DNA of 64,000 nt, taken from Ciceribacter thiooxidans (lineage in GTDB: Bacteria > Pseudomonadota > Alphaproteobacteria > Rhizobiales > Rhizobiaceae). The stretch is from the NCBI RefSeq assembly GCF_014126615.1, contig NZ_CP059897.1:682001-746000 (forward strand). The letters run 5' to 3'. The translations under genes were made by a program, and so were the position numbers. The notes under the pieces were generated by a model, which had not been told where the DNA came from, searched no databases, and was given only the letters and a program-made list of their open reading frames with translations. This document shows positions 2,422 to 17,278 of this stretch, piece by piece; the stretch's first letter is position 1, and every line of letters begins with the position of its first letter.

Positions 2422-2448
2422 GCCTCCCGCAGCCGGACCGCGGGAGGC
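2422..2448 (-). terminator. Hairpin downstream of the DUF4387 gene
   Basis: A perfect 9-bp inverted repeat (GCCTCCCGC / GCGGGAGGC, 9-nt loop) lies 27 nt beyond the DUF4387 stop, at the end of the minus-strand operon. It has no U-tract, so intrinsic termination is only probable. Confidence 0.5.
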
Positions 2449-2474
2449 AGAGGTGGTCCCGGGCAGCGCCCGGA

Positions 2475-2798
2475 TCAGATTTCCCTGACCTCGACGTCGA
2501 GGAAGGGGGCATATTGCTGCGCGCCGAAGATGTCGGCGTCGCCGGGGCTTCCGCTCGGGCGCAGACGCAGGATTGTGAACTTGATGGCATAGGCCGGATC
2601 ATATTCGACGAAATCGGTCAGCCGTGCCCGGTCGATGCCGAGGATGGCGCAGACCGTCTCCGGCGTCAGCGCTCCTGAACGTTTAACCCTGTCGTAGGTC
2701 TCGCGCTCGCGGAAGATGACGTCGAAGGTGATCTTGTCCGTGCCGGCATTCTTGCTGCGGATCGTCTTGGCGAGGTCGGAAAGTTTGGTCACGGTCAT
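2475..2798 (-). CDS. DUF4387 domain protein
   Basis: A 107-residue protein that is entirely one DUF4387 domain (LAKTIRSKNAGTDKITFDVIF near the N-terminus, DAYGAQQYAP-like DIFGAQQYAPFLDVEV at the end). The family has no established biochemical function. It almost always follows an AtuA/DUF1446 gene, sometimes fused to it, which suggests a two-subunit enzyme. Here its start overlaps the AtuA stop by 4 bp (ATGA), so translation is probably coupled. Last gene of the minus-strand operon, followed by a hairpin. Confidence 0.88.
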   Translation of the reverse strand: MTVTKLSDLAKTIRSKNAGTDKITFDVIFRERETYDRVKRSGALTPETVCAILGIDRARLTDFVEYDPAYAIKFTILRLRPSGSPGDADIFGAQQYAPFLDVEVREI

Positions 2799-4177
2799 TG
2801 CGTAGCCTCGATCTGCCCATTGGCGATGATGGCGGTGTGGGTGGGGAAGAGTTCCAGCGGGTCGCTGACCGACATCGTGTGATTGAGGGTCCAGTGATAG
2901 GCTGGGCTTGCCGGCATGACTTCGTCAAGGATGAAGGAGACGCCACCGGCGGTACCCTTGACGTCGGGGAGACGGGCGTAGAACAGCTGGCGGGTGCCGG
3001 TGATGGTGACCTCCTCGGCCATCTCCCTGGTGGGAGCCACACCTTGTACCACGATCATCAGCTCGTGCGCCGGCTTGTCCTTCAGCGGTTCCATGTGGCC
3101 CATGATGCCGTTTCGGCCGAAGACGTTGTAGTGCAGTTCCCAGCCTTCAGGGCCGAAGCGCTCGCGTACCTGCGTTCTCGCCCATTCGATTACCTCGTCG
3201 ACGTGAGCAATGGTGTAGGGATCGCGAATGCCGGCCATTCCGACGAAGCGTTCGCCGAGCTTGCCGGAACCTTCCAGCTTGACGCGGAAATCGGTTGCGG
3301 GGACGAATTCCATGCCGGTGACCCGGGTGGTCTTCTCCGAAACCTGTTCGTAGACGCAATTGGTCATGTCGAGCATGCCGCCGGCGACATACTCGAAGAA
3401 CGGGTTGGAGCGCTCGTACATGGCGTGACCGGCGACGGAGGCGATGGTGCAGCGCTGTTCTGGCGCCATGGCCGTGACTTCCACCCAGTCCTGCGTGACT
3501 TCACCGAGGACGGTTTCCTTGGCGCCATAGGGTTCCGCGCAAAACGAAGCGCATTCCAGCACCTTGCCGAGATAATAGGACTGCGCCTCGGGAAACCCGC
3601 GGGCAAGCGCAGCGCTCGCGAATACTGCGCTATCTGAGGAGCGGCCGCCGATGATGACGTCGCAGCCCTGGTCGAGCAAAGCGCGGAACGGATGAACGCC
3701 GGCCATGGCGACAACACGATCGGTGGTATCCAGCACCGCCTCCGTCAACGGCGGACGGGCATCGAGGCCCTCGACGGTCGAGCCGGAACGCATCCTTGAA
3801 CGGATCAACTCCTTGTCGACCTCGGAGTAGAACCAGCCGATGCGGAAAGGCGGCAGACTGTGCTTTTCGGCAATTTCGCGGATCATTTCGACATACATGT
3901 CGACCCGGCTGTTGGTGCCGGTGTCTCCCGCCGAGCCGATGATCATCGGCACGCCGATACGACGCGAGGCCAGCAACATCTCTTCGAGGTCATGTGCCTG
4001 CCAGGCCTTGGGACTTGCGCAGGTATCGTTGCCGAGCGGCACCGGGCCGATGTCATCGCTTCCGCTGTCGGCTGCGATGAAGTCGGGGCCGGCGTCGACG
4101 CCGATGTGGAAGCTCGCAGGCTTCAGCGGCGCGAAACCCAGATGCCCGTTAGGGCAGATGATCTTCATAGATCGCAT
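2795..4177 (-). CDS. AtuA/DUF1446-family protein, probable acyl-CoA pathway enzyme
   Basis: A 460-residue protein of the AtuA (acyclic terpene utilisation) / DUF1446 family. Typical segments are GSAGDTGTNSRVD near residue 85, DVIIGGRSSDSAVFA near 185 and GRNGIMGHMEPL in the C-terminal half. AtuA itself is needed for citronellol/geranyl-CoA degradation in Pseudomonas, but its reaction is unresolved and most family members sit in other operons with DUF4387. The ATG at 4177 is chosen because GGAGAAAG stands 4 nt before it; two further in-frame ATGs follow closely. A -24/-12 type promoter lies 46-60 bp upstream, so AtuA-DUF4387 can be expressed separately from the transporter operon by the same activator. 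The substrate is unknown. Confidence 0.85.
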   Translation of the reverse strand: MRSMKIICPNGHLGFAPLKPASFHIGVDAGPDFIAADSGSDDIGPVPLGNDTCASPKAWQAHDLEEMLLASRRIGVPMIIGSAGDTGTNSRVDMYVEMIREIAEKHSLPPFRIGWFYSEVDKELIRSRMRSGSTVEGLDARPPLTEAVLDTTDRVVAMAGVHPFRALLDQGCDVIIGGRSSDSAVFASAALARGFPEAQSYYLGKVLECASFCAEPYGAKETVLGEVTQDWVEVTAMAPEQRCTIASVAGHAMYERSNPFFEYVAGGMLDMTNCVYEQVSEKTTRVTGMEFVPATDFRVKLEGSGKLGERFVGMAGIRDPYTIAHVDEVIEWARTQVRERFGPEGWELHYNVFGRNGIMGHMEPLKDKPAHELMIVVQGVAPTREMAEEVTITGTRQLFYARLPDVKGTAGGVSFILDEVMPASPAYHWTLNHTMSVSDPLELFPTHTAIIANGQIEATQ

Positions 4178-4222
4178 GCACTTTCTCCATTGAAGAACGA
4201 GAACCGTCTTGTCCTGGTGAAT

Positions 4223-4237
4223 GCATGCAACGTGCCA
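4223..4237 (-). promoter_or_regulatory. Sigma-54 (-24/-12) promoter of AtuA-DUF4387
   Basis: Read on the minus strand: TGGCACG-TTGC-ATGC followed by A. It keeps the essential GG and GC dinucleotides at the correct spacing and differs from TGGCACG-N4-TTGC(A/T) at one base. The predicted transcription start is about 35 nt before the AtuA ATG. The presence of a sigma-54 activator gene immediately upstream supports it. Confidence 0.65.
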
Positions 4238-4309
4238 AACGTAGACGCACGTCTAAGGTATTGAAAATGCATCGCGAAAAGCGCCGAAATAATCCGGTCC
4301 GACAGGGTT

Positions 4310-4324
4310 GCGCGAAACGCACGC
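4310..4324. promoter_or_regulatory. Candidate activator (enhancer) site of the AtuA promoter
   Basis: On the minus strand this reads GCGTGCGTTTCGCGC, which matches 12 of 15 positions with GCGTGTATTTCACGC at 12141-12155 upstream of the other sigma-54 promoter. It lies about 95 bp upstream of the -12 element, a normal distance for an activator of this class. An overlapping short palindrome CACGC-G-GCGTG spans 4320-4330. Confidence 0.45.
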
Positions 4325-4349
4325 GGCGTGTCGTGCGCTGCGCGCCGCC

Positions 4350-5366
4350 TCAGTCGTTGATCAGGCCGAGCTTGATCATCTGGTGGCGCATGGCATGCCG
4401 GCTCAGTTTCAGGGTTGCCGCAGCGCGCTGGAGATTTCCAGCCGCCGCCGCGAGTGCTGCCTCGATCAGTTGCTTCTGATAGTGAGCAGTGGCCCCGTGA
4501 AAACCGAGCGAGAGATCATCGACGGAGGCTTGCTCCTTCGGGTGAGACACGACACCCGCGGCCTTCGCCCTGACGGTTCGCACAATGCGGTCAGGCAGGT
4601 GTCGTGGCAGGATGAGGTCGTCGTCCTCGAGAATGAAAATGCGTTCGATCAGGTTTTCCAGCTCGCGAACATTTCCGGGCCAGGGATAGTCCAGGAATAT
4701 CTGCTGGACCTCCTCGCTCATGCCCTTGATTTTGCGACTGTACTGGACGTTGAACTTGTCGACGAAGTGCTGCGCCAGGATCAGGGTGTCGGAGGCGCGT
4801 TCCCTGAGTGCCGGAAGGTTGATCGCAACCACCTGCAGCCGGTAATAGAGATCCTCGCGAAAACGTCCGGAATTGACCTCGCCGAGCAGGATCTTGTTCG
4901 TCGCGGCGACGAGCCTGACGTCGACCGAAGTCGAAGTGACGGCTCCGACCCGACGGAATCTCTGCGTGTCGAGGAAGCTCAGCAACTTGGCCTGCAGCAC
5001 GAGGTCCATTTCGCGGATCTCGTCGAGGAACACCGTGCCGTGGTTTGCCATCTCGACCAGGCCGGCCTTCTTGACCTGGGCGCCGGTGAAGGCGCCGCGC
5101 TCATGCCCGAACAGTTCTGATTCCAGCAGGCTCGATGGGATAGCCGCACAGTTGATGTCGACGAACTCGCCCGAAGCTCGCGCCGACTGCTGGTGCAGCA
5201 TGCGCGCCACCAGTCCCTTGCCGGTCCCGGTCTCGCCGTAGATGAGGACCGTGCGGGCGGGGCTCTTGGCCACACGCGTGATCAGCTTCCGCAGGGCATC
5301 GATGCTCGCATGCTCGCCGATCAGATCACGCTCGTAATTCGCCATGGGTCGCCCTGGTTGAGACAT
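4350..5366 (-). CDS. Sigma-54-dependent activator without a sensor domain
   Basis: A 338-residue bacterial enhancer-binding protein consisting only of the AAA+ domain and a C-terminal Fis-type helix-turn-helix. Visible motifs are Walker A GETGTGK (residues 44-50), the sigma-54 contact loop GAFTGA (91-96), Walker B VFLDEI (112-117), PWPGNVRELENL, and an HTH ending in SRHAMRHQMIKLGL. The open frame extends much further upstream, but that part is antisense-like and overlaps the C45 gene. The start is placed at ATG 5366, 5 nt after the C45 stop; ATG 5345 with AGGG upstream is an alternative. With no response-regulator, GAF or PAS domain, it may be controlled by a partner protein, by its own level, or be constitutively active. 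Co-transcription with its likely target operon would give positive feedback. Confidence 0.85.
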   Translation of the reverse strand: MSQPGRPMANYERDLIGEHASIDALRKLITRVAKSPARTVLIYGETGTGKGLVARMLHQQSARASGEFVDINCAAIPSSLLESELFGHERGAFTGAQVKKAGLVEMANHGTVFLDEIREMDLVLQAKLLSFLDTQRFRRVGAVTSTSVDVRLVAATNKILLGEVNSGRFREDLYYRLQVVAINLPALRERASDTLILAQHFVDKFNVQYSRKIKGMSEEVQQIFLDYPWPGNVRELENLIERIFILEDDDLILPRHLPDRIVRTVRAKAAGVVSHPKEQASVDDLSLGFHGATAHYQKQLIEAALAAAAGNLQRAAATLKLSRHAMRHQMIKLGLIND

Positions 5367-5371
5367 GGCGA

Positions 5372-6469
5372 TTATACGGTCATTTCGAACAACTGCCACT
5401 CTCCCGAACAGGGGTTCCCCTCCAGAAAATGAAGGCTCGCCTTGTCGCAGCGGTAGATGACGGAGGAAATGGTCTGGGAACCGTCGTGGTCCGGATGCTG
5501 GCAGAGCGGGGCCATGCCTGCCCCGTCCTCGGCATGGGTCGCCATCAGGGCTGCAGCCGCTTCGACGCTCCAACGCCGGTTCGGAACCATGCGCGACAGG
5601 AAGTCGAACCGGATCGACGAATTGTCGTCGATCCGGTCGCCATGCTCGAGAAGATTGCAGTCCGCCATGTTCGCCGTGACGAAATGGTTGGTCCGCCAAG
5701 ATGCCGCGCCCTTCTCGATGCCGGATGAACCAGTTCCCAATTCGATTGCAGCCGTCGCCCCGCTGCGATCGGCCAATATGAGATTTCCGCCGCCGGCATG
5801 GGGCCGTGCGGCGATGAAGCTGATCGCCTCGTCGACCGTGCGGCACGTTGCCAGTATCCGGGTCATCGCAAAGTAGCGGAGCCAGCCGACACCATGGTGG
5901 TTGGTTCCCACGTGGTTGTCGACGAGGGCGAGACCCGCCGCGTTTATCCCGCTCGAATAGGCCCCGGGGCTGCCGGCGCTACCGACGCAGATCATCCGGC
6001 CGGTCGCAATGTCCGGACCCTCATGCAGGAAGACGCGCTGCACGCCGAGATGCGACCCCGAGAAGTCGCGATTCTTCACGACAAGCGGTCCATCCTCGCT
6101 ATCGCCGACCGCCCAGGTGCTGCAACCATCCGTGTCGATGTGCGCACCCGTCTTGAGGTCGCGAAGGACTGTAAGGTGCTGGTGGACGAAGAGATCGTCC
6201 TCAGGAACGCCGAACCCTTCAGCTATGCCGGCCAGTTCCGCCATGGTGTCAGGATCGTTGGCGGTCAGGAAGGCGCGCTGGGCCTCGACGTAACGCAAGC
6301 CATCGGCGTCGATCAGGCCGGCGGCGCGGGCCTCCTCGACACGGCCAAGGACGGCGGTTCGGACCTGGGACTCGCTCACGCCAGCCCTGGCCGCTTGCGC
6401 GCGCCCGCGCTCGCAAGGGCTGCCGGAGAGGAGAACCGGAACAGCAGGAGCAGCATTGAAGAGCGGCAT
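5372..6469 (-). CDS. C45-family autoproteolytic acyltransferase/amidohydrolase
   Basis: A 365-residue member of peptidase family C45 (acyl-CoA:6-aminopenicillanate acyltransferase-like, Ntn hydrolase fold). The key element is DTDGCSTWAVGD: self-cleavage before Cys116 would expose the nucleophile. NRDF, a glycine-rich GSAGSPGAYSSGINAAGLAL and NHVGTN follow as in the family. Members hydrolyse or transfer acyl groups on N-acyl amino acids, peptides or beta-lactams. There is no signal peptide, so it acts in the cytoplasm. It lies 4 bp downstream of the ABC ATPase and 5 bp upstream of the activator, so it most likely processes what the transporter imports, an N-acylated peptide or amino acid. The exact substrate cannot be read from sequence. 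Confidence 0.85.
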   Translation of the reverse strand: MPLFNAAPAVPVLLSGSPCERGRAQAARAGVSESQVRTAVLGRVEEARAAGLIDADGLRYVEAQRAFLTANDPDTMAELAGIAEGFGVPEDDLFVHQHLTVLRDLKTGAHIDTDGCSTWAVGDSEDGPLVVKNRDFSGSHLGVQRVFLHEGPDIATGRMICVGSAGSPGAYSSGINAAGLALVDNHVGTNHHGVGWLRYFAMTRILATCRTVDEAISFIAARPHAGGGNLILADRSGATAAIELGTGSSGIEKGAASWRTNHFVTANMADCNLLEHGDRIDDNSSIRFDFLSRMVPNRRWSVEAAAALMATHAEDGAGMAPLCQHPDHDGSQTISSVIYRCDKASLHFLEGNPCSGEWQLFEMTV

Positions 6470-6473
6470 CGCA

Positions 6474-7490
6474 CTACCTCAGGATCGAGAGTTCGTCATT
6501 GATTAGGTGACAGGACACCGTGTGACCGTTGCCGGCCTCATGGCGGGGTGGCGCTTCCTTCCGGCACAGGTCAATCGCCAGCGGACAGCGGGTATGGAAT
6601 TTGCAGCCCGGCGGCGGGTTTTGCGGCGAAGGAAGATCGCCGGTGAGCCGCACGCGCTGACGCTTGCCGGGATGGTCGACATCGGGCACGGCCGACATCA
6701 GGCTCTGCGTGTAGGGATGGCGCGGATTAGACAGTACGGCCTCGACCGGTCCCATCTCGACGATCTCGCCAAGATACATCACCGCGACGCGGTCGCTCAG
6801 GTAACCGATGACCGAGATGTCGTGGGAGACGAAAAGGTAGGTCAGTCCCATCTCGCGCTTGAGGCTGGTCAGCAGTTCGATGATCTGTGCCTGGATCGAG
6901 ACGTCGAGAGCCGAAACCGGCTCGTCGCAGACGATGAACTGTGGATTGCTGATCAGAGCCCGGGCGATGCCGATGCGTTGGCGTTGCCCGCCGGAGAATT
7001 GATGCGGGTAGCGATCGAGATGATTGGCCTTCAGCCCGACCTTGTCCATGATCGCTGCGACCCTGTCGCGCATGTCGCGCCGATTGGAGGCAAGCCCGTG
7101 CAGCATCAGCGGCAGTCCGATGATGTCTGCAACGGTACGACGCGGATTGAGCGACGCGTAAGGATCCTGAAAGATGATCTGCATGTCTCGACGCATTGCC
7201 TTCAACGCATCGGGCTTCAGTGCGGTTATGTCTGTTCCGTTGAAGACGACCCTGCCGGAGGTTGGTTCGTGCAGGCGAAGCAGCGTGCGCCCGAGCGTCG
7301 ATTTCCCGCACCCGCTTTCGCCGATCAGGCCGAGCGTCTCGCCGCGTCGCACCTCGAAAGAGACGCCGTTAAGTGCCCGAATGTTGATTGCCGGTTTCCC
7401 AGTCGCCCAGGAAATCGGGTCCCGTCGCCCGCCATAGTGCTTCACGAGGTTGTCGACGGTGATAAGCGGCGTAGTCATCCTCTCGTTCAT
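6474..7490 (-). CDS. Peptide-type ABC transporter ATPase (DppF/OppF)
   Basis: A 338-residue ATPase: Walker A GESGCGKST, signature FSGGQRQRIGIARAL, Walker B FIVCDEP, and the oligopeptide C-terminal cysteine motif CKFHTRCPLAIDLC that can bind an FeS cluster in this subfamily. It pairs with the next ATPase upstream, whose stop it overlaps by 4 bp. Fifth gene of the operon. Confidence 0.92.
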   Translation of the reverse strand: MNERMTTPLITVDNLVKHYGGRRDPISWATGKPAINIRALNGVSFEVRRGETLGLIGESGCGKSTLGRTLLRLHEPTSGRVVFNGTDITALKPDALKAMRRDMQIIFQDPYASLNPRRTVADIIGLPLMLHGLASNRRDMRDRVAAIMDKVGLKANHLDRYPHQFSGGQRQRIGIARALISNPQFIVCDEPVSALDVSIQAQIIELLTSLKREMGLTYLFVSHDISVIGYLSDRVAVMYLGEIVEMGPVEAVLSNPRHPYTQSLMSAVPDVDHPGKRQRVRLTGDLPSPQNPPPGCKFHTRCPLAIDLCRKEAPPRHEAGNGHTVSCHLINDELSILR

Positions 7491-8491
7491 GCCTTGCCCT
7501 CCGACAGCCGAATACAGCGCGCACGGCGTTGTTCACCGAGGTCGCGCATGTCGATGCGTTGCCGGCAGGCGTCGATGCGTTCGCCGCAGCGGGAATAGAA
7601 ACGGCACTGCGGCGGGAGGTCGACCAGATCGGGTACCTGGCCTTCAATCGGGCTGATCTTCTGCCCGCGCAGAGAAAGCCGCGGAATGGATTGGAGGAGG
7701 CCGCGCGTATAGGGATGCAGTGGCTCCCGGATGACCGAAGCGGTCGGGCCTTCCTCGACCACCTGACCGGCGTACATGACCATCACCCGGTCGCAATACT
7801 CGGACACCACGCCGAGGTCATGAGTGATCAGAACGACGCTCATGCCGAGGCGCGCGCGGATATCGGCGATCAGTTCCAGCACCTGGGCCTGGATCGTCAC
7901 GTCAAGGGCCGTGGTCGGCTCGTCGGCGATCAATAGCTTTGGCCGGCAGGCGAGCGCGATGGCGATCATGATCCGCTGGCGCATGCCGCCCGAAAACTCG
8001 TGAGGGTAATATTTGAGGCGGTCGCCAGCCGAGGCGATTCCGACGAGTTCGAGCATGTCGACCGCCTTGGCGCGTGCCGCCTTGCGCCGCGCCATGCGTC
8101 CTTCCGGAAGCGTTTCGTCATGGGCATAGAGCACTTCGAGGATTTGCTCGCCCACCGTCAGTGCGGGATTGAGTGCCGTCAACGCGTCCTGCATGGTTAT
8201 TGCGATGTCGCGACCGCGAATCCTGCGCATGTCGTGGACCGAAAGACCCCTGAGGTCGCGCCCTTCGAACGAGATCGAGCCGTTGACGATGCGCCCCGGT
8301 GCCCGCACCAATCCCATCACCGAGGAAAAAGTGACGCTCTTGCCAGAGCCACTTTCGCCGACGACGCCGAGACATTCGCCCGGATACACGGTGACGTCGA
8401 CGCCGTCGACTGCGAAGACACGGCCGGCACGCGTCTCGAACACCGTCCTGAGGTCCTGCACCTGGAGGAGGGGCGTTGCGGTGGTCGTCAT
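7487..8491 (-). CDS. Peptide-type ABC transporter ATPase (DppD/OppD)
   Basis: A 334-residue ATPase with Walker A GESGSGKS, signature FSGGMRQRIMIAIALA, Walker B LLIADEP and the C-terminal CRFYSRCGERIDAC motif. The open frame extends to 8593, but the first 34 codons overlap the permease gene; the ATG at 8491 makes an ATGA overlap with the permease stop and is the likely start. Forms the ATPase heterodimer with the DppF-type subunit encoded next. Confidence 0.92.
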   Translation of the reverse strand: MTTTATPLLQVQDLRTVFETRAGRVFAVDGVDVTVYPGECLGVVGESGSGKSVTFSSVMGLVRAPGRIVNGSISFEGRDLRGLSVHDMRRIRGRDIAITMQDALTALNPALTVGEQILEVLYAHDETLPEGRMARRKAARAKAVDMLELVGIASAGDRLKYYPHEFSGGMRQRIMIAIALACRPKLLIADEPTTALDVTIQAQVLELIADIRARLGMSVVLITHDLGVVSEYCDRVMVMYAGQVVEEGPTASVIREPLHPYTRGLLQSIPRLSLRGQKISPIEGQVPDLVDLPPQCRFYSRCGERIDACRQRIDMRDLGEQRRARCIRLSEGKA

Positions 8492-9396
8492 TCGTTGAAC
8501 CTCGGATCGAAAGCGTCGCGCAGGCCCTGGCTTGCCACGTTGATCACCAACACGAGAAGAAGGATGGCAAGGCCGGGGAAGGTCGAAACCCACCAGGCCT
8601 CGAGGATGAAAGCGCGCCCGTCTGCCACCATCGATCCCCAGGAGGCAGTCGGCGGCTGTACGCCGAGACCGAGGAAGGAGAGGCTCGCCTCCAGGATGAT
8701 GACGTCGGCCATGCGGATGGTCGAAACGACGATCACCGGCGACAGGATGTTCGGCATGATTTCGCGCAGCATGATGTGGAAGCGCGAAGCGCCGATGGCG
8801 CGCGCTGCTTCGACATACTCGAGTTCGCGGGCTGCGAGCGTCTCACCTCGCACCACACGACAGGGGATGACCCATTCCTTGTAGGCGAGCGCAAGGATGA
8901 TATTGACGAGACCAGGCCCCATCATCGCCATCAGACCGATGGCGAAGATCAGGTACGGGAATCCGAGCAGAATGTCGACGAGCCTCGATATGGCAATGTC
9001 GACCCAGCCACGCAGGTAGCCGGCAGCAAGTCCTGCAATGATGCCAACCATGGTCGCGATGAGAATGACGGCGGTGCCGATGAAGATCGAGATGCGCGAA
9101 CCGTAGATGATGCGCGAGAGGATATCACGGCCGAGCCCGTCGCAGCCGAGAAGATAGCTCCATTCTCCGCCGGCCGCCCAGCCTGGCGGCTGCAGACGCC
9201 TGAAAAGATCAGTCTCGTTCGGATCATGTGGTGCAATGAGCGGGGCGAAGATCGCCACCAATACGAAGAGGAGCATGAGCACGGCGCTGGCGAGCGCCAG
9301 CCGGTTCTCCGCAAAGACACTGAGATTGCGGCGAAACAGGGTGGTGCCCTCTTCGGTCGCGATGGCCGGTGCGGCGGTATCGTCGGCCGCCGTCAT
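8488..9396 (-). CDS. Peptide-type ABC transporter permease (DppC/OppC)
   Basis: A 302-residue inner-membrane permease with the OppC-type N-terminal segment, about six helices, and the EAA coupling loop EAARAIGASRFHIMLREIMPNI. Its start overlaps the stop of the DppB-type permease by 4 bp. Confidence 0.92.
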   Translation of the reverse strand: MTAADDTAAPAIATEEGTTLFRRNLSVFAENRLALASAVLMLLFVLVAIFAPLIAPHDPNETDLFRRLQPPGWAAGGEWSYLLGCDGLGRDILSRIIYGSRISIFIGTAVILIATMVGIIAGLAAGYLRGWVDIAISRLVDILLGFPYLIFAIGLMAMMGPGLVNIILALAYKEWVIPCRVVRGETLAARELEYVEAARAIGASRFHIMLREIMPNILSPVIVVSTIRMADVIILEASLSFLGLGVQPPTASWGSMVADGRAFILEAWWVSTFPGLAILLLVLVINVASQGLRDAFDPRFNE

Positions 9397-10400
9397 AGTT
9401 TCACCCTCGGATTGAGCAGTGTGTAGAGGAGGTCGGCAACAAAGTTCACCAGCACGTAGGTTACGGCGTAGAACAGCACGGCCGCCTGGACGAGTGGATA
9501 GTTGCGCACGAAGATGCTTTCGACCACGAGCCGACCGAGGCCCGGCCAGCCGAAGACCGTCTCAACGATCATGTTGCCACCGAGCAGCGAGCCGGTTTCG
9601 AGGGCTGCGACCGAGACCGTCGGGATCAGGGCGTTCTTCAGTGCGTGGCGGAAGAGAATTCGCCGGCGGCTGAGGCCCTTGGCTTCGGCGAAGGCGACAT
9701 AGTCCTGCCGCAGCACTTCGAGCATCGAGGTGCGGGTGACGCGCGTCAGGATCGCCGTCATCGGCAGCCCCAGCGTGATTGCCGGCAACAGGATGTGGGA
9801 CAGCGCGTCCCAAAAGGCGTCGAGGCGCCCGCGCAACAGCGTATCGATCAAGAGGAAATGGGTGATCGGCGCGACCTCGCTGTCGAAACCGATGCGGCCG
9901 GACACCGGCAGAAGCCTCAATTGCACGGCAAACAGCATCAAGAGGAGAATGCCGAACCAGAAGCCCGGGAGCGAAACGCCAAGCAGCGAACCGACCGTGG
10001 CGATGCGGTCGATGATCGTATTTTTCCTGATCGCCGCCATCACGCCGAGCGGAATGGATGTGGCGAGCGCAATGATGAGCGCCACAAGGCTGAGCTCGAT
10101 CGTTGCCGGCAGACGCTCGACGATTACGTCGAACACCGGTCGCCGGTGGAACAGGCTCGTCCCGAAGTCGCCGGTAACCGCGTTTTCGAGGAAGACCAGG
10201 AAGCGCTCGCCCATCGGCTTGTCGAGTCCGAGGTTCTGGCGAAGCGTCAGTTCCTCGGCGGCTGTGATCGGCTGGTCGCCGATCATGATCTCGACCGGAT
10301 CTCCCGGTGTCAGCGCCATCATCAGGAAGACGATGGTGCTGACACCGAGGAGAACGGGAACGAGCTGCAGAAGACGCTCGACCAGTTTACCCAGATGCAT
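9393..10400 (-). CDS. Peptide-type ABC transporter permease (DppB/OppB)
   Basis: A 335-residue permease with the family N-terminus (a first helix, TPGDPVEIMIGDQPITAAE in the periplasmic part) and the EAA loop FAEAKGLSRRRILFRHALKNALIPT. Lies 23 bp downstream of the binding-protein gene in the same operon. Confidence 0.92.
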   Translation of the reverse strand: MHLGKLVERLLQLVPVLLGVSTIVFLMMALTPGDPVEIMIGDQPITAAEELTLRQNLGLDKPMGERFLVFLENAVTGDFGTSLFHRRPVFDVIVERLPATIELSLVALIIALATSIPLGVMAAIRKNTIIDRIATVGSLLGVSLPGFWFGILLLMLFAVQLRLLPVSGRIGFDSEVAPITHFLLIDTLLRGRLDAFWDALSHILLPAITLGLPMTAILTRVTRTSMLEVLRQDYVAFAEAKGLSRRRILFRHALKNALIPTVSVAALETGSLLGGNMIVETVFGWPGLGRLVVESIFVRNYPLVQAAVLFYAVTYVLVNFVADLLYTLLNPRVKL

Positions 10401-10423
10401 GGTTCGTTCCCGTCCTATGCTGG

Positions 10424-11962
10424 CTATTCAACACAGGCGTCGTGCAGGTTGATGCGGCTGTCGGCGCTCGGCGACCAGCCCTTCAGGCGCTTGGACACCC
10501 CGTAGATGTCCTTCGGAACCCACAGGTAGATGTAGGGAAGGTCCGCATTCACGATCGCTTCGGCCTTCTGGTAGAGGGTCGCACGCTTGGCCGGATCGAG
10601 TTCGACCGCGCCCTGGTCGAGGAGGGTGTCGACCTCCTTGTTGGAGTAGCCGGAGGCGTTGCCGCGGCCCATCGTGTAATGCGTGGGCACGAAGATGTCG
10701 AACGGGTCGAGCGAGCCGTTACCCCACGACGTGAAATACATATCGCCGTCGTTCTTGTCGTTCTTCGGATCCCACTTCGCGTCGACCTGGGCACTTTCTC
10801 CGACGGCAACCTTGGCGCGGATCCCGGACTTGGAGAGAACTGAGGCAATCGCCTCGACCGTGTCCTTGTCGGCGCCTTCGGTGTCGATCGTTATGTCGAT
10901 GCCGTCAGGGAAGCCGGCTTCTGCCAGCAGTGCCTTTGCCTTTTCCGGGTCGTAGTCGTGCTTCGGCAGGTTGGTCGACGCAGCGAAGGCGGCGGGGCTG
11001 AGGATGCCTTCAATCGGCACGGCGTTCCCGCCGAGGATCTTGTCGATGATCAGCTGCTTGTCGAGCGCATACGCGACCGCCTGGCGAACCTTGATGTCGT
11101 CGAACTTGTCTCCATGCAGGTTGAGCGCGAGGAAAACACTGCGCGTTCCGTTGACCGTCATGACCTTCGTATTGGGGTTCTGCTCCACCTGGGCGATCGA
11201 GAAGGGCGGCAGCCCGTTGATGATGTCGACGTCGCCGGAGAGCAGGGCCGCCACGCGCGAAGCCGTTTCAGGAATAACCTTGAAGATCACCCGGTCGACG
11301 CAAGCCTTGCCGACCGGTGCAATATCCGGCGAGCCGCCGTAATAGTCGTCGAAGCGTTCCATGATGATGGAGTCGCCTTTGCGCCATTCGACGAGCTTGA
11401 AGGGACCCGCACCATTCTCGGCAGTTGCCATGCCGGCAGTGCCGACTTTCTCGACGAAAGCCTTCGAGACAAATTCCTGGAAAGGCAGCATGGCCGGCAG
11501 CAGCGGCCAGGGCTCGCTGAGATTGATGCGGATCGTGTCGTCGCCGACGATCTCGACGTCCTTGACCGGACCCAGCAGGCTCTTGCGCGGGCTCGTCTGC
11601 CCGTCGCCCATTGCGCCTTCTACGGTCAGGCGGTCGAGGGTGAATTTGACGTCCTCGACGGTTAGTTCCGAGCCGTCATGGAACTTGATGCCCTTGCGTA
11701 TCTTGAACTCGAAGGACGTCGGCGATGTCTGTGTCCAGGATTCGGCAATCTCTGGAACGACTTTCATCTCGGCATCGCGGGTCAAGAGCCCGTCATACAT
11801 GTTGCGGATGATCGTCTCGGTCTCGCGATTGCGATGATTGGCCGGATCCAGCGTGAGTGCATCGGCCGTGAAGCCGACCCGTATTTCGGAGGCTGACAGC
11901 GAGGTCGCCGAAAGCGCAAGCGTGGCCGCGGTGGTGATTAAAAGACGTTGAAAGTTCCCCAT
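10424..11962 (-). CDS. Family-5 solute-binding protein of the sigma-54-linked peptide importer
   Basis: A 512-residue SBP_bac_5 protein with a Sec signal peptide (LLITTAATLALSATSLSASEIR). The mature part has GLLTRDAEMKVVPEIAESW and KFHDGSELTVEDVKFTLDR, both typical of DppA/OppA. The start is ATG 11962, preceded by AAGGAG; a longer frame to 12025 has no signal character. First gene of the operon, behind a consensus -24/-12 promoter. Family-5 proteins bind peptides, opines, nickel chelates, glycosides and acylated amino acids; ligand unknown here. Confidence 0.9.
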   Translation of the reverse strand: MGNFQRLLITTAATLALSATSLSASEIRVGFTADALTLDPANHRNRETETIIRNMYDGLLTRDAEMKVVPEIAESWTQTSPTSFEFKIRKGIKFHDGSELTVEDVKFTLDRLTVEGAMGDGQTSPRKSLLGPVKDVEIVGDDTIRINLSEPWPLLPAMLPFQEFVSKAFVEKVGTAGMATAENGAGPFKLVEWRKGDSIIMERFDDYYGGSPDIAPVGKACVDRVIFKVIPETASRVAALLSGDVDIINGLPPFSIAQVEQNPNTKVMTVNGTRSVFLALNLHGDKFDDIKVRQAVAYALDKQLIIDKILGGNAVPIEGILSPAAFAASTNLPKHDYDPEKAKALLAEAGFPDGIDITIDTEGADKDTVEAIASVLSKSGIRAKVAVGESAQVDAKWDPKNDKNDGDMYFTSWGNGSLDPFDIFVPTHYTMGRGNASGYSNKEVDTLLDQGAVELDPAKRATLYQKAEAIVNADLPYIYLWVPKDIYGVSKRLKGWSPSADSRINLHDACVE

Positions 11963-12029
11963 TCTTATATCTCCTTGTTCGAGAAGAGCCGCGGCGTTCT
12001 TATGTTTCCGCTGGTCCAGCGACATTTCT

Positions 12030-12044
12030 GCAAGCCGCGTGCCA
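12030..12044 (-). promoter_or_regulatory. Consensus sigma-54 promoter of the peptide importer operon
   Basis: Read on the minus strand, TGGCACG-CGGC-TTGC followed by A: a full match to TGGCACG-N4-TTGC(A/T) with correct GG/GC spacing. The predicted transcription start is near 12019, leaving a leader of about 57 nt before the binding-protein ATG. The operon it drives contains the sigma-54 activator gene. Confidence 0.8.
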
Positions 12045-12138
12045 CCTCTGACCGATCCCGGCGATCACCCGAAAAACCTTGTTTTCTCAATTTTTTGGTC
12101 CCCCGCATCGGTCGACCACCACGCCAGTGCAGAATGGT

Positions 12139-12187
12139 GCGCGTGAAATACACGCATGATGTTCTCAATACGCGCGCGGCGCGTGAA
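12139..12187. promoter_or_regulatory. Candidate enhancer sites upstream of the sigma-54 promoter
   Basis: GCGTG-AAATA-CACGC at 12141-12155 is a perfect 5-bp inverted repeat. The element GCGCGTGAA occurs at 12139-12147 and again at 12179-12187, exactly 40 bp apart, close to four helical turns. They lie 95-155 bp upstream of the -12 element, a typical activator position. The same 15-mer recurs with three changes upstream of the AtuA promoter. Confidence 0.5.
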
Positions 12188-12199
12188 CCAATGTGTTCC

Positions 12200-12640
12200 G
12201 CGTCGGAGCCAGGTTTCTCTGACCTAACCCGCGCTCGATTGTCCATGTTCGTGCACCGGATGAACCCGGATAGCGATAGGGTCACCGCGTCCAGGGGGCA
12301 ATAAACGGCAGTGGAGACGTCGTTGATGCCGCGCCGGCACCGTCGAAGATACGAACATGGGCTTGATGAAAGGCGTGGTTCGCTCGGCGTTGCCAGATGC
12401 CGCCCAGCCGGCGGAAAAAGGCTTTGCGGTTTCGCCTCAATCTCCGGTTCCTCGCCTGACGTACTGCGCGTTGGCGTGGCGTCTCATATCCCTTGCACGG
12501 ATATCGACGGAGTGTTCAGGAACGTTGATGGCGGGCCACTCGAGAGTTTTGGGCGTGTTTCCGGGCAAGTACTGATCGGTCCGTGTACACCATCAATATG
12601 CACGTCCTTGAAAAATGAAGCCTGCGTCACGTATATCCTA
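12200..12640. other. Intergenic region, no gene recognised
   Basis: About 440 bp between the divergent peptide-importer operon and the second antitoxin gene. Open frames on the plus strand lack protein character. A palindromic GTGTACAC at 12583-12590 lies about 80 bp before the antitoxin start and could be an autoregulatory operator, but this is only a guess. Confidence 0.35.
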
Positions 12641-12665
12641 AACAGCAGTGGTTTACGAGAGAGAG

Positions 12666-12950
12666 ATGGAAATGGCCCAAGCTGCCTGTGATGACGACAA
12701 GCGCATGAATCTGCGCGTTTCGCCGAAAACGAAGGCCAAGCTCTTGCGCGCCGCCGTTCTGCGCAACACCGACCTGACCGACTTTGTCACCCAGAGCGCC
12801 TTGCGTGAGGCCGAAGCGGTGATCGAGGCGGAGGAGGTCCTTCGCGTTGCGACGAGCGATCACGCACGCGTGCTGGAGCTGCTTGAGAACCCTCCAAGGC
12901 CTAACGGAAAGTTGCAAGCGGCGATTGCGGCGTTGCCCGACACGCTATGA
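12666..12950 (+). CDS. DUF1778 (TacA-like) antitoxin
   Basis: About 94 residues, complete: ribbon-helix-helix part (DDDKRMNLRVSPKTKAKLLRAA, TDLTDFVTQSALREAE) then the neutralising tail (VLELLENPPRPNGKLQAA). The ATG at 12666 follows GAGAGAG; ATG 12672 is equally possible, and a GTG at 12648 less so. Expected to bind its own promoter and a GNAT toxin. The stop overlaps the ATG of the toxin frame (ATGA), the canonical TacAT organisation, but that toxin is dead. Only loosely similar in sequence to the antitoxin at the left edge, so the two modules are probably independent arrivals. Confidence 0.85.
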   Translation: MEMAQAACDDDKRMNLRVSPKTKAKLLRAAVLRNTDLTDFVTQSALREAEAVIEAEEVLRVATSDHARVLELLENPPRPNGKLQAAIAALPDTL

Positions 12951-13194: not shown

Positions 13195-13735
13195 CTAATC
13201 GCATGAAATCCGATTCTCACTCATGAAAAACGATGACTGGCGCGCACTTTCACGAAAAACAATAACGCCCAACGCGAATAAGTCCCGCGCCAATGACAAG
13301 AGCGACTTTGAAAGAGGATCCCGTCCCATGACGAGGTCCAAACTCTGCAGCATCCCGTGCATGACCGCGAGATGGCGGGCCAATGCGACCTTCGCCCTTT
13401 TTACTGCCGTGTCGCCTAGCAATATTCATTGCCTCTGCCATCAGCCAGCACCATTTCGCCACGCGCTTCGTCATCAACTGAGCTGCCTCGTAGACCAGCT
13501 TTCGCACTATCGCATTCCCGCGTAGAGAGACTTGGCTGAGCCGGCTCACTCCACCTGACTGTTTTCAGTACGAGTGTAAAACCCAACATTTCTCCGAACG
13601 ATTGAGGATGGCGAGACCTGTTCAGAATATCGATCGTCGCGACGTCGGTGAACGAGACAACTGTTCCAATGCCAGGCACAGTCATCCGCCTCCTGTAAAC
13701 CGAGTGCTGCTCCGCCTCGGCTAGAACCCGCTTGT
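13195..13735 (-). mobile_element. IS110-family transposase remnant, frameshifted
   Basis: On the minus strand the C-terminal (Transposase_20) part of an IS110 transposase is spread over three frames: AEFHKRVLAEAEQHSVYRRR and MTVPGIGTVVSFTDVATID (about 13630-13735); then GNAIVRKLVYEAAQLMTKRVAKW (about 13450-13530); then VKRAKVALARHLAVMHGML (about 13330-13400). The N-terminal DEDD half is missing. The remnant abuts and slightly overlaps the 3' end of the cdhR-like gene and lies just beyond the dead toxin, so it may mark a rearrangement that trimmed both. Confidence 0.75.
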
Positions 13736-14707
13736 GGAACTCGGCGTATCGCCTGCCTTCCTCTGGCGGAGCGTTTCGCCGAACTTGATACGATAGGCAC
13801 GCGCAAGCGTCGACGGCGACGAAAAACCCGTCCGCGAGGCAATTTCGTAGAGGGAAAGGTTCGTCTCAAGCGCCAGGGCGCGGGCGTGAGCTAACCTGAT
13901 CTGGCGATAGTACTCTCCAGCCGGTACCCCGAGATGGGTGTGGAACAGGCGATCCATCCCGCGCGTCGAGAGCGCGACGCGTTCGGCGATGTCCGGCAAC
14001 CGCAGCGGCTGTTCCGCAGTCTCTCGCATGGAGATGATTGCGCGCTGCAAGGCGATAGGCAGCCGCTGATCGCTCAATCGACCGGAAAGGCCATGTGCCG
14101 TTGCCCTCTCATCAAGGCTCTCGACGCGCCCGAACATATTCGCAACGTCGAAACGCAGCGCTTCGTCGGCGTATGTTCCAATGAGATCGAGCGACCAGCT
14201 CAGAACGCTTTGCGCATCGCCGCATGTCACGATGTTTCCGTCGACGACGTAGGGCGCGTCGATGACCTGGAGCTCGGGGAAATTCTCGGCGAGTTCTTTT
14301 CTCTCCATCCAGTGAATGGTCGCCCGGCGCCCGCCGAGAAGACCCATCCGCGCGAGAAGCCATGCGCCCGTATCCAGGCCCCCAACCATCGGCAGACCCC
14401 GAGCCTTGCGCCTGACCGCGGCGGAGGAATCGTGGTTCAGGTGATTGCGAATTCCATATCCCGCCACGAGGATCAGCGCATCCGTCGCGCCCACACGGGC
14501 AAGGGGAAGATCTGCCCCGATCAGGGCGCGCGACGAACTGGCGATCGCGCCGCCGTCGAGCGAGCACAATTGCCACGAAAACAGCCGTCGACCTGACAGG
14601 TCTCGCGCTGCCCGCAGCGGTTCAATGGCGCTCGCCAACACCATGTTGGAGAAGCCTTCGAACAACAAAAACGTCAGGTGAAACGGCGATTTTGGCGACA
14701 TATGCAC
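13721..14707 (-). CDS. cdhR: GlxA/CdhR-type AraC regulator of carnitine catabolism
   Basis: A 328-residue regulator: an N-terminal DJ-1/PfpI-like domain (FLLFEGFSNMVLASAIEPLRAAR; LILVAGYG; GGLDTGAWLLARMGLLGGRRATIHW) and a C-terminal AraC double HTH (RGMDRLFHTHLGVPAGEYYRQIRLAHARAL, IASRTGFSSPSTLARAYRIKFGETLRQ). This architecture is shared with CdhR, the activator of carnitine dehydrogenase genes. It is divergent from the cdhC-like gene with about 80 bp between the start codons, and direct repeats of TATGCACA lie there. The start could be ATG 14707 or ATG 14701. The 3' end runs into the IS110 remnant, so the last dozen residues may not be original. Confidence 0.82.
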   Translation of the reverse strand: MHMSPKSPFHLTFLLFEGFSNMVLASAIEPLRAARDLSGRRLFSWQLCSLDGGAIASSSRALIGADLPLARVGATDALILVAGYGIRNHLNHDSSAAVRRKARGLPMVGGLDTGAWLLARMGLLGGRRATIHWMERKELAENFPELQVIDAPYVVDGNIVTCGDAQSVLSWSLDLIGTYADEALRFDVANMFGRVESLDERATAHGLSGRLSDQRLPIALQRAIISMRETAEQPLRLPDIAERVALSTRGMDRLFHTHLGVPAGEYYRQIRLAHARALALETNLSLYEIASRTGFSSPSTLARAYRIKFGETLRQRKAGDTPSSTSGF

Positions 14708-14729
14708 AATCTAGCGCGTTCTATGCACA
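14701..14729. promoter_or_regulatory. Direct-repeat operator between cdhR and cdhC
   Basis: TATGCACA occurs at 14701-14708 and 14722-14729, a 21-bp period (two helical turns), as expected for an AraC-family activator binding one face of DNA. It sits between the divergent cdhR and cdhC starts. If ATG 14701 is the cdhR start, the first repeat overlaps that start codon. Confidence 0.55.
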
Positions 14730-14789
14730 TCGCGAGGGAAAAATTGCTGTCACACTCCCGTGGAATTTGACCGCCCCCCGGAGTTTTTC

Positions 14790-15677
14790 ATGAATCGCGA
14801 CGTCTTCATAACCTGCGCTGTCACCGGCTCTGGACAGAGCCACACCAAATCGCACTTCGTACCGATTACGCCCGCTCAGATCGCCGACGCCTGTATCGAG
14901 GCTGCCAAGGCGGGTGCAGCCATTGCGCATGTCCATGTCCGCGATCCCAAGACAGGTGCACCGGCACGCGACCCTGCCCTTTACCGTGAAGTCGTGGAGC
15001 GCGTGCGGGCCGCAGACACCGACGTCGTCCTGAACCTCACTGCAGGCATGGGCGGCGATATCGTTCTTGGCTCGGCGGAAGCGCCGCTGCCTCTCTCCCC
15101 CCAGTCCGATCTGGTCGGGGCCACCGAGCGACTTATCCATGTCGAGGAATTGCTCCCTGAAATCTGCACGCTCGATTGCGGCACGATGAATTTCGCGGAA
15201 GCAGACTACGTGATGACCAACACGCCCGGCACTTTGCGGGCTATGGCCAAGCGCATCCAGGCTGCCGGCGTGCGTCCGGAGATCGAGGTCTTCGATACCG
15301 GCCATCTCTGGCTCGCGAAGGCCCTCGTCGACGAGGGCCTGATCGACGATCCGGTGATGATCCAGCTCTGCATGGGCATTCCCTACGGCGCTCCGGCGGA
15401 TTTGAACAGCCTGATGGCGATGGTCAACAACATCCCCCGCGGCTGGACCTATTCGATGTTCTCCATCGGGCGCATGCAACTGCCCTATGTCGCACAGGCC
15501 GCACTGGCCGGCGGCCACGTCCGTGTCGGGCTGGAGGACAATATCTGGCTGGAGAAGGGCGTGCTTGCGCGCAACGGCGATCTGGTCGAGCGCGCGGCAA
15601 CCATCCTCACGACAATGGGTTGCCGCATCCTCGGGCCACAGGAGGTCCGCGAAAAACTTAGACTGCGCCGGCGGTAG
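14790..15677 (+). CDS. cdhC: BKACE family 3-dehydrocarnitine cleavage enzyme
   Basis: A 295-residue DUF849/BKACE protein (beta-keto acid cleavage). It has the TIM-barrel zinc motif HVHVRDP (His47, His49), LNLTAGMGGDIVLG and ELFDTGHL-like EVFDTGHLWLAKAL. In carnitine catabolism CdhC condenses 3-dehydrocarnitine with acetyl-CoA to give betainyl-CoA and acetoacetate. The neighbouring carnitine dehydrogenase-thioesterase fusion makes this assignment much more likely than the lysine-pathway Kce activity. The start is ATG 14790 with GGAG 7-8 nt upstream; a GTG at 14760 lies too close to the promoter. First gene of a seven-gene operon. Confidence 0.85.
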   Translation: MNRDVFITCAVTGSGQSHTKSHFVPITPAQIADACIEAAKAGAAIAHVHVRDPKTGAPARDPALYREVVERVRAADTDVVLNLTAGMGGDIVLGSAEAPLPLSPQSDLVGATERLIHVEELLPEICTLDCGTMNFAEADYVMTNTPGTLRAMAKRIQAAGVRPEIEVFDTGHLWLAKALVDEGLIDDPVMIQLCMGIPYGAPADLNSLMAMVNNIPRGWTYSMFSIGRMQLPYVAQAALAGGHVRVGLEDNIWLEKGVLARNGDLVERAATILTTMGCRILGPQEVREKLRLRRR

Positions 15678-15721
15678 TCGGCATCTCAACGACAACAATC
15701 ATAAAGAGAGGAACAGTTGAA

Positions 15722-17278
15722 ATGAGCACAGCACTATTCGATATGACGCGTCGCAGCCTTCTGGCGGGGGCTGCAGGTCTCGCTGCCGCCGGGCTGATCC
15801 TGCCGCGCGGAGCCAGAGCTGCGGAGCCGAAACGCGGGGGCACCTTGCGCATCGGCCATCTCGGTGGTGCAACGTCCGACACGCTCGACCCCGCCACCTT
15901 TGCAGCCGGTCCGGTCGTGACCGCGATGCTCGCGGTCTGCAACAATCTCGTCGAGATCGATGCCGAAGGCAAAGCGGTGCCGGAACTGGCTGAAAGCTTC
16001 GAACCCGATGCGCAAGCGCGCGTCTGGACCTTCAAGCTCCGTCAGACGGCGACATTCTCCGATGGCCGCAAGCTGACCGCAAAGGACGTCATCGCCTCGT
16101 TCAACCACCATCGCGGCAAGGACACGAAGTCGGGCGCGAAGGGCTCTCTCGAGCAATTGGCGGACATACGCGCCGATGGCGACCACGTGGTCATCTTCGA
16201 GCTGAAATCCGGCAACGCAGATTTTGCCTACCTGACATCCGACTACCATTTTGTCATCATGCCAGCCAATGACGACGGCACGCTGGACTGGCAGTCGAAA
16301 CTCGGCACCGGCGGCTATGTGCTGGCGGATTTCGAACCGGGCGTTCGTATCACGCTGAAGCGCCGCGACGATTACTGGAAGTCGGATCGCGCCTGGTTCG
16401 ACGAAGCCGTTCTGTCGACCATCAACGATGCTACGGCGCGCCAGAACGCTCTGATGACGGGCGAAGTTGATGTGATCAACTCACCGGATCTGGCGACCCT
16501 TCCGCTGCTCCTGCGTCGCCCCGGGATTCAGGCAACGGAGGTAACCGGCACCGCACATTACGCCATGCCAATGTTCTGCGACGTCGCCCCTTTCAACGAC
16601 CCGAATGTCCGCCTTGCGCTCAAATACGCCATCGACCGCAAGGAAGTGCTCGAAAAGGTTCTGCATGGACATGGACAGATCGCGAATGACAGTCCCATTG
16701 CACCCGCCAACCGTTACTATGCCGCTGACCTTCCCCAACATGCATACGATCCCGACAAGGCGAAGCACTACCTCAAGAAGGCCGGTATGGAGGCGCTGAA
16801 GGTTGAGATTGCCGCCTCGGACGCAGCTTCCGTCGGATCGCTCGCCATGGTGCAATTGTTCCAGCAGTCGGCGAAGGCGGCCGGGATCGACCTCGGCATC
16901 AAGCGCGAGCCCGATGACGGCTACTGGTCGAATGTCTGGCTCAAGAAACCCTTCTGCGTCAGTTACTGGAACGGGCGCCCCACCGAGGACGATATGTTCA
17001 GCCTTGTCTACGCCAAGGCTGTCGACTGGAATGAAAGCCACTGGGACAACGAGCGATTCAATTCGCTTCTGGTCAAGGCCCGCACGACACTCGATGAACA
17101 ACTGCGCTCGGAAATGTACCATGAGATGCAGGGGCTGGTTAGCGAGGACGGCGGGACGATCATCCCGATCTTCGTCAATTATATCGACGTCTCCAACGAC
17201 AAGGTTGCCCATGGCCCCGTCGCCAACAACCGCTTCTTCGATGGCTGGAAGATCGTGGAACGGTGGTGGCAGGCATGA
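15722..17278 (+). CDS. Family-5 solute-binding protein with Tat-like signal
   Basis: A 518-residue SBP_bac_5 protein. The N-terminus has a twin-arginine signal (TRRSLLAGAAGLAAAGLILP...ARA), then KRGGTLRIG, KLRQTATFSDGRKLTAKDV and YDPDKAKHYLKKAG typical of peptide/nickel-type binding proteins. GAGAGGA precedes the ATG. The stop overlaps the start of the carnitine dehydrogenase gene. Carnitine importers described in Pseudomonas use betaine/choline-type binding proteins, so a family-5 protein here hints at a larger ligand such as an O-acylcarnitine. Confidence 0.88.
   Translation: MSTALFDMTRRSLLAGAAGLAAAGLILPRGARAAEPKRGGTLRIGHLGGATSDTLDPATFAAGPVVTAMLAVCNNLVEIDAEGKAVPELAESFEPDAQARVWTFKLRQTATFSDGRKLTAKDVIASFNHHRGKDTKSGAKGSLEQLADIRADGDHVVIFELKSGNADFAYLTSDYHFVIMPANDDGTLDWQSKLGTGGYVLADFEPGVRITLKRRDDYWKSDRAWFDEAVLSTINDATARQNALMTGEVDVINSPDLATLPLLLRRPGIQATEVTGTAHYAMPMFCDVAPFNDPNVRLALKYAIDRKEVLEKVLHGHGQIANDSPIAPANRYYAADLPQHAYDPDKAKHYLKKAGMEALKVEIAASDAASVGSLAMVQLFQQSAKAAGIDLGIKREPDDGYWSNVWLKKPFCVSYWNGRPTEDDMFSLVYAKAVDWNESHWDNERFNSLLVKARTTLDEQLRSEMYHEMQGLVSEDGGTIIPIFVNYIDVSNDKVAHGPVANNRFFDGWKIVERWWQA

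Follow-up and report, generated by a model that had tools for sequence, protein, structure and literature searches.

How is a catabolic gene block switched on when the gene for its transcriptional activator lies within the block itself? This question is raised by nine adjacent genes on the minus strand of a 64,000-bp stretch of the genome of the soil bacterium Ciceribacter thiooxidans (NZ_CP059897.1, positions 682,001 to 746,000; hereafter the window, in whose numbering coordinates are given unless a locus is named). The nine genes probably serve the uptake and breakdown of a peptide-like compound and include the gene for a sigma-54 activator of their own. In the order of transcription they encode a family 5 solute-binding protein, two Dpp/Opp-type permeases, two ATPases, a C45 enzyme, the activator, an AtuA family protein and a DUF4387 protein. 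The first seven genes overlap one another or are spaced by no more than 27 bp, and a gap of 172 bp separates the activator gene from AtuA. A sequence-only reading of this DNA had proposed one activator, two promoters, a shared enhancer-type site and an activator gene placed in its own target operon, and comparison with relatives supports this arrangement. The interpretation as a whole is partly supported, its architecture and core idea being right. We put the probability that the block is a catabolic regulon under the control of the sigma-54 activator that it encodes at about 0.87.

Results

Two promoters of the -24/-12 type accompany the activator in related loci

Two -24/-12 elements were confirmed on the minus strand of the block. 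Promoter 1 (TGGCACGCGGCTTGC, 12030..12044) precedes the binding-protein gene and matches the consensus fully; promoter 2 (TGGCACGTTGCATGC, 4223..4237) precedes AtuA and has one mismatch, the first T of the TTGC quartet being replaced by A. Each has a 15-mer upstream that is an inverted repeat of the form GCGTG-N5-CACGC. The dyad of promoter 1, GCGTGTATTTCACGC (12141..12155, minus strand), matches the arms at 10/10 positions and that of promoter 2, GCGTGCGTTTCGCGC (4310..4324, minus strand), at 9/10, and the two agree at 12 of 15 positions, as had been reported. The distance of 95-120 bp claimed for both holds for the first, which spans 97-111 bp upstream of the first -24 base, and only roughly for the second, which spans 73-87 bp. 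A second, weaker dyad (8/10; 4331..4345, minus strand) lies 21 bp from the first at the AtuA promoter.

Related loci were collected by searches with the C45 protein, which identified five loci in named genomes. In draws of genomes, matches with E up to 1e-60 were obtained in 4 of 151 genomes of the family, 5 of 63 of the genus and 6 of 397 of the order, and matches with E up to 1e-50 in 10 of 385 of the class and 3 of 398 of the phylum, those of the phylum draw all falling inside the class. The window's own genome is included in each of these counts and the draws overlap; four of the five loci from named genomes are the same records as the other four genus hits. The sparse matches across the draws indicate that the block is patchy. 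Gene content and order of the nine-gene block are shared by 15 loci (the window, L009-L013, L029-L033, L035, L036, L076 and L080). L034 contains the C45, activator, AtuA and DUF4387 genes, with the block's importer absent upstream. Five loci (L074, L075, L077, L078 and L079) contain importer, C45, AtuA and DUF4387 and are called activator-less in the sense that the fetched stretch gave no activator match. L081 has the activator-less arrangement likewise, on a contig that stops short of the binding protein; L082, whose contig ends inside C45, is not counted among the activator-less loci, and L083, of distant arrangement, was left out. A plasmid collection yielded 104 records matching parts of the block, none of which covers 80% of it.

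A -24/-12 site was counted as conserved when at least 9 of 11 positions matched, with GG and GC obligatory. The sequence-only reading had named orthologous loci lacking both elements as evidence that would speak against it, and the outcome is favourable: all 15 loci with a GAFTGA-containing activator have promoter 1 no more than 120 bp from the binding-protein start, against a background of 1.28% among 22,400 random 120-bp windows from the same loci. No such site was found in 420 bp of upstream DNA in any of the five activator-less loci (best 8/11), and none in L082 either; by eye, those 420-bp upstream stretches contain the apparent ends of LysR- or GntR-type genes. With one locus taken per genus, promoter 1 follows the presence of the activator in a comparison of 11 with 4 (Fisher p 7e-4), in which the activator-less groups are L074, L075, L077 with L078, and L079, and which is independent of L082.

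Promoter 2 follows the gap between the activator gene and AtuA, measured from the last aligned residue. All 12 activator loci in which the gap is at least about 150 bp have the site; the three in which it is about 41-44 bp (L033, L035 and L036) do not, and there AtuA can be co-read with the activator (12 v 3, Fisher p 0.002, five of the 12 sharing one genus). The two-promoter design thus holds for the loci with the wider gap and is not universal. Shared descent makes these Fisher figures optimistic. Since the promoter DNA is kept with the activator and missing without it in the relatives examined, the switch looks real.

The activator lacks a sensing domain

The activator gene (4350..5345, minus strand) encodes a protein of 331 residues, in which an AAA+ domain with Walker motifs and GAFTGA (Sigma54_activat, PF00158, residues 8-175) is followed by a lid (PF25601) and a Fis-type helix-turn-helix domain (HTH_8, PF02954). 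No domain lies N-terminal of AAA+, and the description of the protein as sensorless is correct. The start at 5345 aligns with those of the orthologues in a 16-orthologue alignment; a longer reading from 5366 is possible. GAFTGA is present in 15 of the 16, the window included, and the RHA-RH residues of the recognition helix are invariant in 16/16. The orthologue without GAFTGA, at L034:7982-8962, has kept the HTH domain and may act without sigma-54; in that locus a gap of about 188 bp precedes AtuA and contains no -24/-12 site, though the genome has rpoN, the gene for sigma-54.

PspF is a sensorless bacterial enhancer-binding protein (bEBP). The activator of the block scores 256.6 bits, under the curated PspF equivalog cut-off of 443.55, and no PspA was found among the ten proteins scanned (2475-12950), the remaining genome not having been searched for it. 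The lack of a sensing domain suggests control by the amount of activator or by an inhibitor. Control by amount, with feedback rising from a low basal level, falls somewhat short of even odds in our estimate, and for an inhibitor protein in the style of PspA our confidence is lower again.

Dyads, often paired, cluster at three distances above the promoters

The 160 bp above 27 promoters contain 47 dyads of at least 8/10, or 1.74 per promoter compared with 0.17 in random stretches, and 25 of the 27 promoters have at least one. Thirty-five of the 47 begin 86-90, 107-112 or 128-132 bp before TGG (25 of 36 in genus-level representatives), in distance bins that were picked after the distances had been seen. 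At promoter 1 the dyad is likewise 111 bp from TGG in the same-genus loci L009, L010, L011 and L013, and 108-112 bp in 7 of 10 other activator loci. At the AtuA promoter it lies 87-89 bp from TGG in 9 of the 12 loci with promoter 2, and both dyad sets of L031 are closer to the promoter (54-83 bp). Dyads paired 18-22 bp apart occur at 13 of 19 genus-level promoters versus 1.1% of 11,000 random stretches; 300 sets of shuffled upstream DNA gave a mean of 0.03 promoters with such pairs and a maximum of 2. The spacing would fit two activator dimers bound on one face of the helix.

The dyad could instead belong to a different regulator, of nitrogen or carbon for instance, while the local activator acts elsewhere. 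The HTH_8 match of the window's activator is weak (24 bits), and 8/10 dyads occur in the 420 bp above three of the five activator-less loci, a rate that the background predicts. However, 13 of the 15 activator loci have a dyad of at least 9/10 above promoter 1, and the five activator-less loci have none as good; the dyad is common to both promoters, and the window's genome has no other exact match to the combination of dyad and -24/-12 element. We consider a foreign owner of the dyad highly improbable.

The exact combined pattern gave six hits in 397 genomes of the order, four of them in this block: two in the window's genome, at both promoters, and two in G335, at both sites; the hits elsewhere were in G237 and G496. 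Because the exact pattern misses the orthologous loci in G291, G437 and G502, further targets are possible. A count of exact palindromes in the window's own genome (13, and 8 for the reversed control) was uninformative and was set aside.

Evidence against the sigma-54 reading and the alternative of chance matches

Several observations weigh against a regulon of this design. Within the 64-kb window the -24/-12 motif is not significant, with five matches at no more than one mismatch and 5.1 expected; significance within the window was therefore rejected as evidence, which must come from relatives. The compared loci are themselves related by descent, and five of the 15 come from one genus. Two of the 27 promoters (AtuA in L030 and the binding protein in L033) have no dyad of at least 8/10. 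The reversed-pattern control of the order-wide scan gave two hits, as many as the forward pattern gave outside the block. In L034, the locus whose activator is without GAFTGA, a weak 8/11 site stands twice just before a different family 5 binding-protein gene (two copies of TGGTATAAACCTTGC, 18 bp apart, L034:4556-4588). Finally, the window's genome has a single rpoN, which appears frameshifted and matches in two frames (G000:C1:3171646-3173129).

The chance-level count in the window would be expected if the -24/-12 sites were chance matches and the operon were read from sigma-70 promoters, and the activator-less loci must indeed use some other promoter. A scan for promoter-like sigma-70 sites found three against 1.7 expected, and a TATAAT with a weak -35 precedes the activator gene. 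This hexamer (5376-5371) overlaps the stop codon of C45 and is conserved or nearly so within the genus only (kept in L009 and L010, TATAGT in L011 and L013, absent from L012); as a constitutive promoter for the activator it was rejected. Chance matches would not be expected to recur in sequence, position and enhancer spacing over 11 genus-level groups, or to be missing where the activator is lacking, and we find this alternative scarcely credible.

The sigma factor gene of this strain appears interrupted

The state of rpoN raises another alternative, namely that the family does have this design, but that in this particular strain the regulon is dead or runs from another promoter. An rpoN was found in 61 of the 63 genus genomes, the two without a match being 76% and 66% complete, and it is split in the window's genome alone (1/61), in which no second rpoN was found; Ciceribacter selenitireducens (L010) is one relative in which rpoN is intact. 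When the 19.5 kb around rpoN were compared with the nearest relative, we read no other sense gene as interrupted. The same picture would result from a small assembly error, and the eight activator matches listed for this genome, the block's included, have no inner stops, which speaks against old or wholesale decay. An rpoN was present in each of the 17 other C45-matching genomes that were searched. The regulon may thus be silent in this strain through loss of sigma-54, or the assembly may be wrong; we treat a dead or rewired regulon in this strain as a serious contender, appreciably below even odds. The earlier description of the system as self-contained is accurate for the activator and its targets, but the sigma factor is encoded elsewhere in the genome and is apparently frameshifted. 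The case cautions that the sigma factor of a seemingly intact regulon may itself be broken.

Some relatives have rpoN beside the block

We observed an rpoN gene beside the block in three of the 24 stretches searched (L030, L031 and L080), which is new; all three are among the 15 activator loci, and the window is not one of them. The copies in L031 (2205-3515) and L080 (about 16228-15218) are divergent and lie just upstream of the binding-protein gene on the same strand. That in L030 (1120-2520) is transcribed divergently from a distance of 330 bp and is the only rpoN match in a genome that is 94% complete. The genome of L031 contains another, full-scoring rpoN, and in that of L080 the adjacent copy alone exceeds the family cut-off (288.1 bits; next 255.3; cut-off 277.35). 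A conserved motif, which we take to be the RpoN box, is kept in all three. In a Pfam scan of the L031 and L030 proteins, the core- and DNA-binding domains are well over the cut-off; the activator-interacting domain of the L031 protein is slightly under it.

The two loci with divergent copies also differ in their promoters. In 10 of the 12 two-promoter loci, L030 included, the -12 quartet begins with T at promoter 1 and with A at promoter 2; it begins with G at both promoters in L031 and with C at both in L080. This association (Fisher p 0.015) was found after looking, and five of the ten loci belong to one genus. In an RpoN tree the divergent L031 and L080 copies group with two other divergent copies on long branches; we are unsure of this placing and claim no single origin. 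A dedicated sigma factor beside the block is plausible but unproven. The wider proposal, which sees in the block a portable sigma-54 module to which some lineages added a sigma factor of their own that co-diverged with activator and promoters, appears to us unlikely. If the adjacent copies are dedicated, they would offer a compact natural example of how copies of sigma-54 come to have promoters of their own. Second rpoN genes are known from rhizobial symbiosis regions, according to a passage in PMC4417242. In two further loci of the same genus (L102 and L104), a divergent rpoN lies near a 703-aa activator-type frame and a GTPase-like gene (by eye), possibly another dedicated rpoN.

The block encodes an importer and candidate catabolic enzymes

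All genes of the block lie on the minus strand, and a scan for terminator-like sites between them on that strand found none, which together with the gene order supports the proposed positive feedback as an inference. The family 5 solute-binding protein (10424..11962; PF00496, E 2.9e-88) has an ATG start after AAGGAG and YliB as its best solved match. It is followed by permeases of the Dpp/Opp type, B (9393..10400; PF00528) and C (8488..9396; PF00528 and PF12911), and by ATPases of the OppD (7487..8491) and OppF type (6474..7490), each with PF00005 and PF08352. The next gene (5372..6469) encodes a predicted C45 autoproteolytic acyltransferase/hydrolase, which matches NF040521 (E 1.4e-45) with 156.1 bits versus a cut-off of 85 and has a candidate nucleophile Cys in a DGC motif. 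All 21 aligned proteins share the Gly115-Cys116 pair at which processing is expected.

AtuA (2795..4177; PF07287) and the DUF4387 protein (2475..2798; PF14330) match two chains of the Protein Data Bank entries 9erq and 9evf, which their depositors call subunits A and B of citramalate lyase (9erq_A, E 1.3e-74; 9erq_B, E 1.2e-21). Both matches are near full-length and the two genes are adjacent; by homology, the pair is a relative of citramalate lyase CmlA-CmlB, which is a new observation. A search of the literature available to us returned no paper on AtuA with DUF4387, on citramalate lyase with AtuA, or on CmlA-CmlB structures. DUF1446 is presumably the older name of AtuA. In the relevant passages of PMC4682846, citramalate lyase converts (S)-citramalate to pyruvate and acetate, and a DUF1446 gene of unknown function adjoins methylaspartate genes. 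The earlier label of N-acyl is too simple for the substrate: the C45 enzyme would fit an amidase or an acyltransferase, and the AtuA-DUF4387 pair is homologous to CmlA-CmlB.

Upstream of the block lies a TacA1-like antitoxin gene (12648-12950). What appears to be a second catabolic system lies beyond the binding-protein promoter (13721-17278), with genes for an AraC-type regulator, a beta-keto acid cleavage enzyme and a further family 5 binding protein. Among the relatives, the block of L013 (JAIBEK010000011.1) is 84-97% identical to that of the window at the protein level; the record is titled as an Arenimonas metagenome-assembled genome, yet the genome collection (G183) places the contig in the window's genus, and the title looks wrong. 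The activator-less locus L079 contains two tandem AtuA-DUF4387 pairs (4039-7448).

Discussion

Taken together, we propose a regulon in which the sensorless bEBP (5345-4350) would bind GCGTG-N5-CACGC dyads, usually paired, about 87, 110 or 130 bp upstream, and from there open sigma-54 polymerase at the two -24/-12 promoters. Promoter 1 would drive the binding protein, permeases, ATPases, C45 enzyme and the activator itself, creating positive feedback, and promoter 2 would provide additional transcription of the AtuA-DUF4387 lyase. The ATP-binding cassette system may import a peptide- or opine-like conjugate, whose amide bond the C45 enzyme would cleave; the CmlAB-like pair might then split the freed branched hydroxy acid, perhaps to pyruvate and an acid, as citramalate lyase does. 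Homology backs each of these metabolic steps separately, and the substrate and the order of the steps are our suggestion from the gene content.

The comparison yields an enhancer code of a sensorless activator that lends itself to testing, in which most dyads are paired at a distance of two helical turns, promoter 2 follows the intergenic gap and no -24/-12 site is found where the activator is lacking. It also places the little-studied AtuA-DUF4387 pair in one block with an importer and an amidase-like enzyme, which opens a way to seek the substrate.

An enhancer-binding protein that controls its own operon through sigma-54 is a kind of system already known. With PspF-type sensorless bEBPs the block shares an activator made of AAA+ with GAFTGA and HTH and no sensor, and enhancer sites upstream of -24/-12 promoters; it differs in that the activator lies inside a transport and catabolic operon, with no PspA-like partner among the proteins scanned. 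A passage in PMC7175178 describes some bEBPs as having no regulatory domain. According to PMC11999139, the RpoN copies of Cereibacter sphaeroides (RpoN1/2/3) have dedicated activators, and position -11 of the promoter contributes to specificity. The likeness there is a specialised rpoN serving one activator and one gene set; in contrast, an adjacent rpoN is found here in 3 of 15 activator loci, and the window depends on one remote rpoN that appears broken.

The enzymes have known counterparts as well. A profile of the aligned C45 proteins matches 2x1d over most of the chain, and the Gly-Cys processing site is shared with C45 hydrolases of this kind; a single-sequence search against solved structures gave no match, which sets the protein apart. 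We take 2x1d, for which the match table reads "acyl-coenzyme", to be isopenicillin N acyltransferase of the penicillin pathway. Compared with citramalate lyase CmlA-CmlB (9erq and 9evf), whose activity is predicted for the AtuA-DUF4387 pair from homology, the pair described here is preceded by an importer, a C45 enzyme and the activator.

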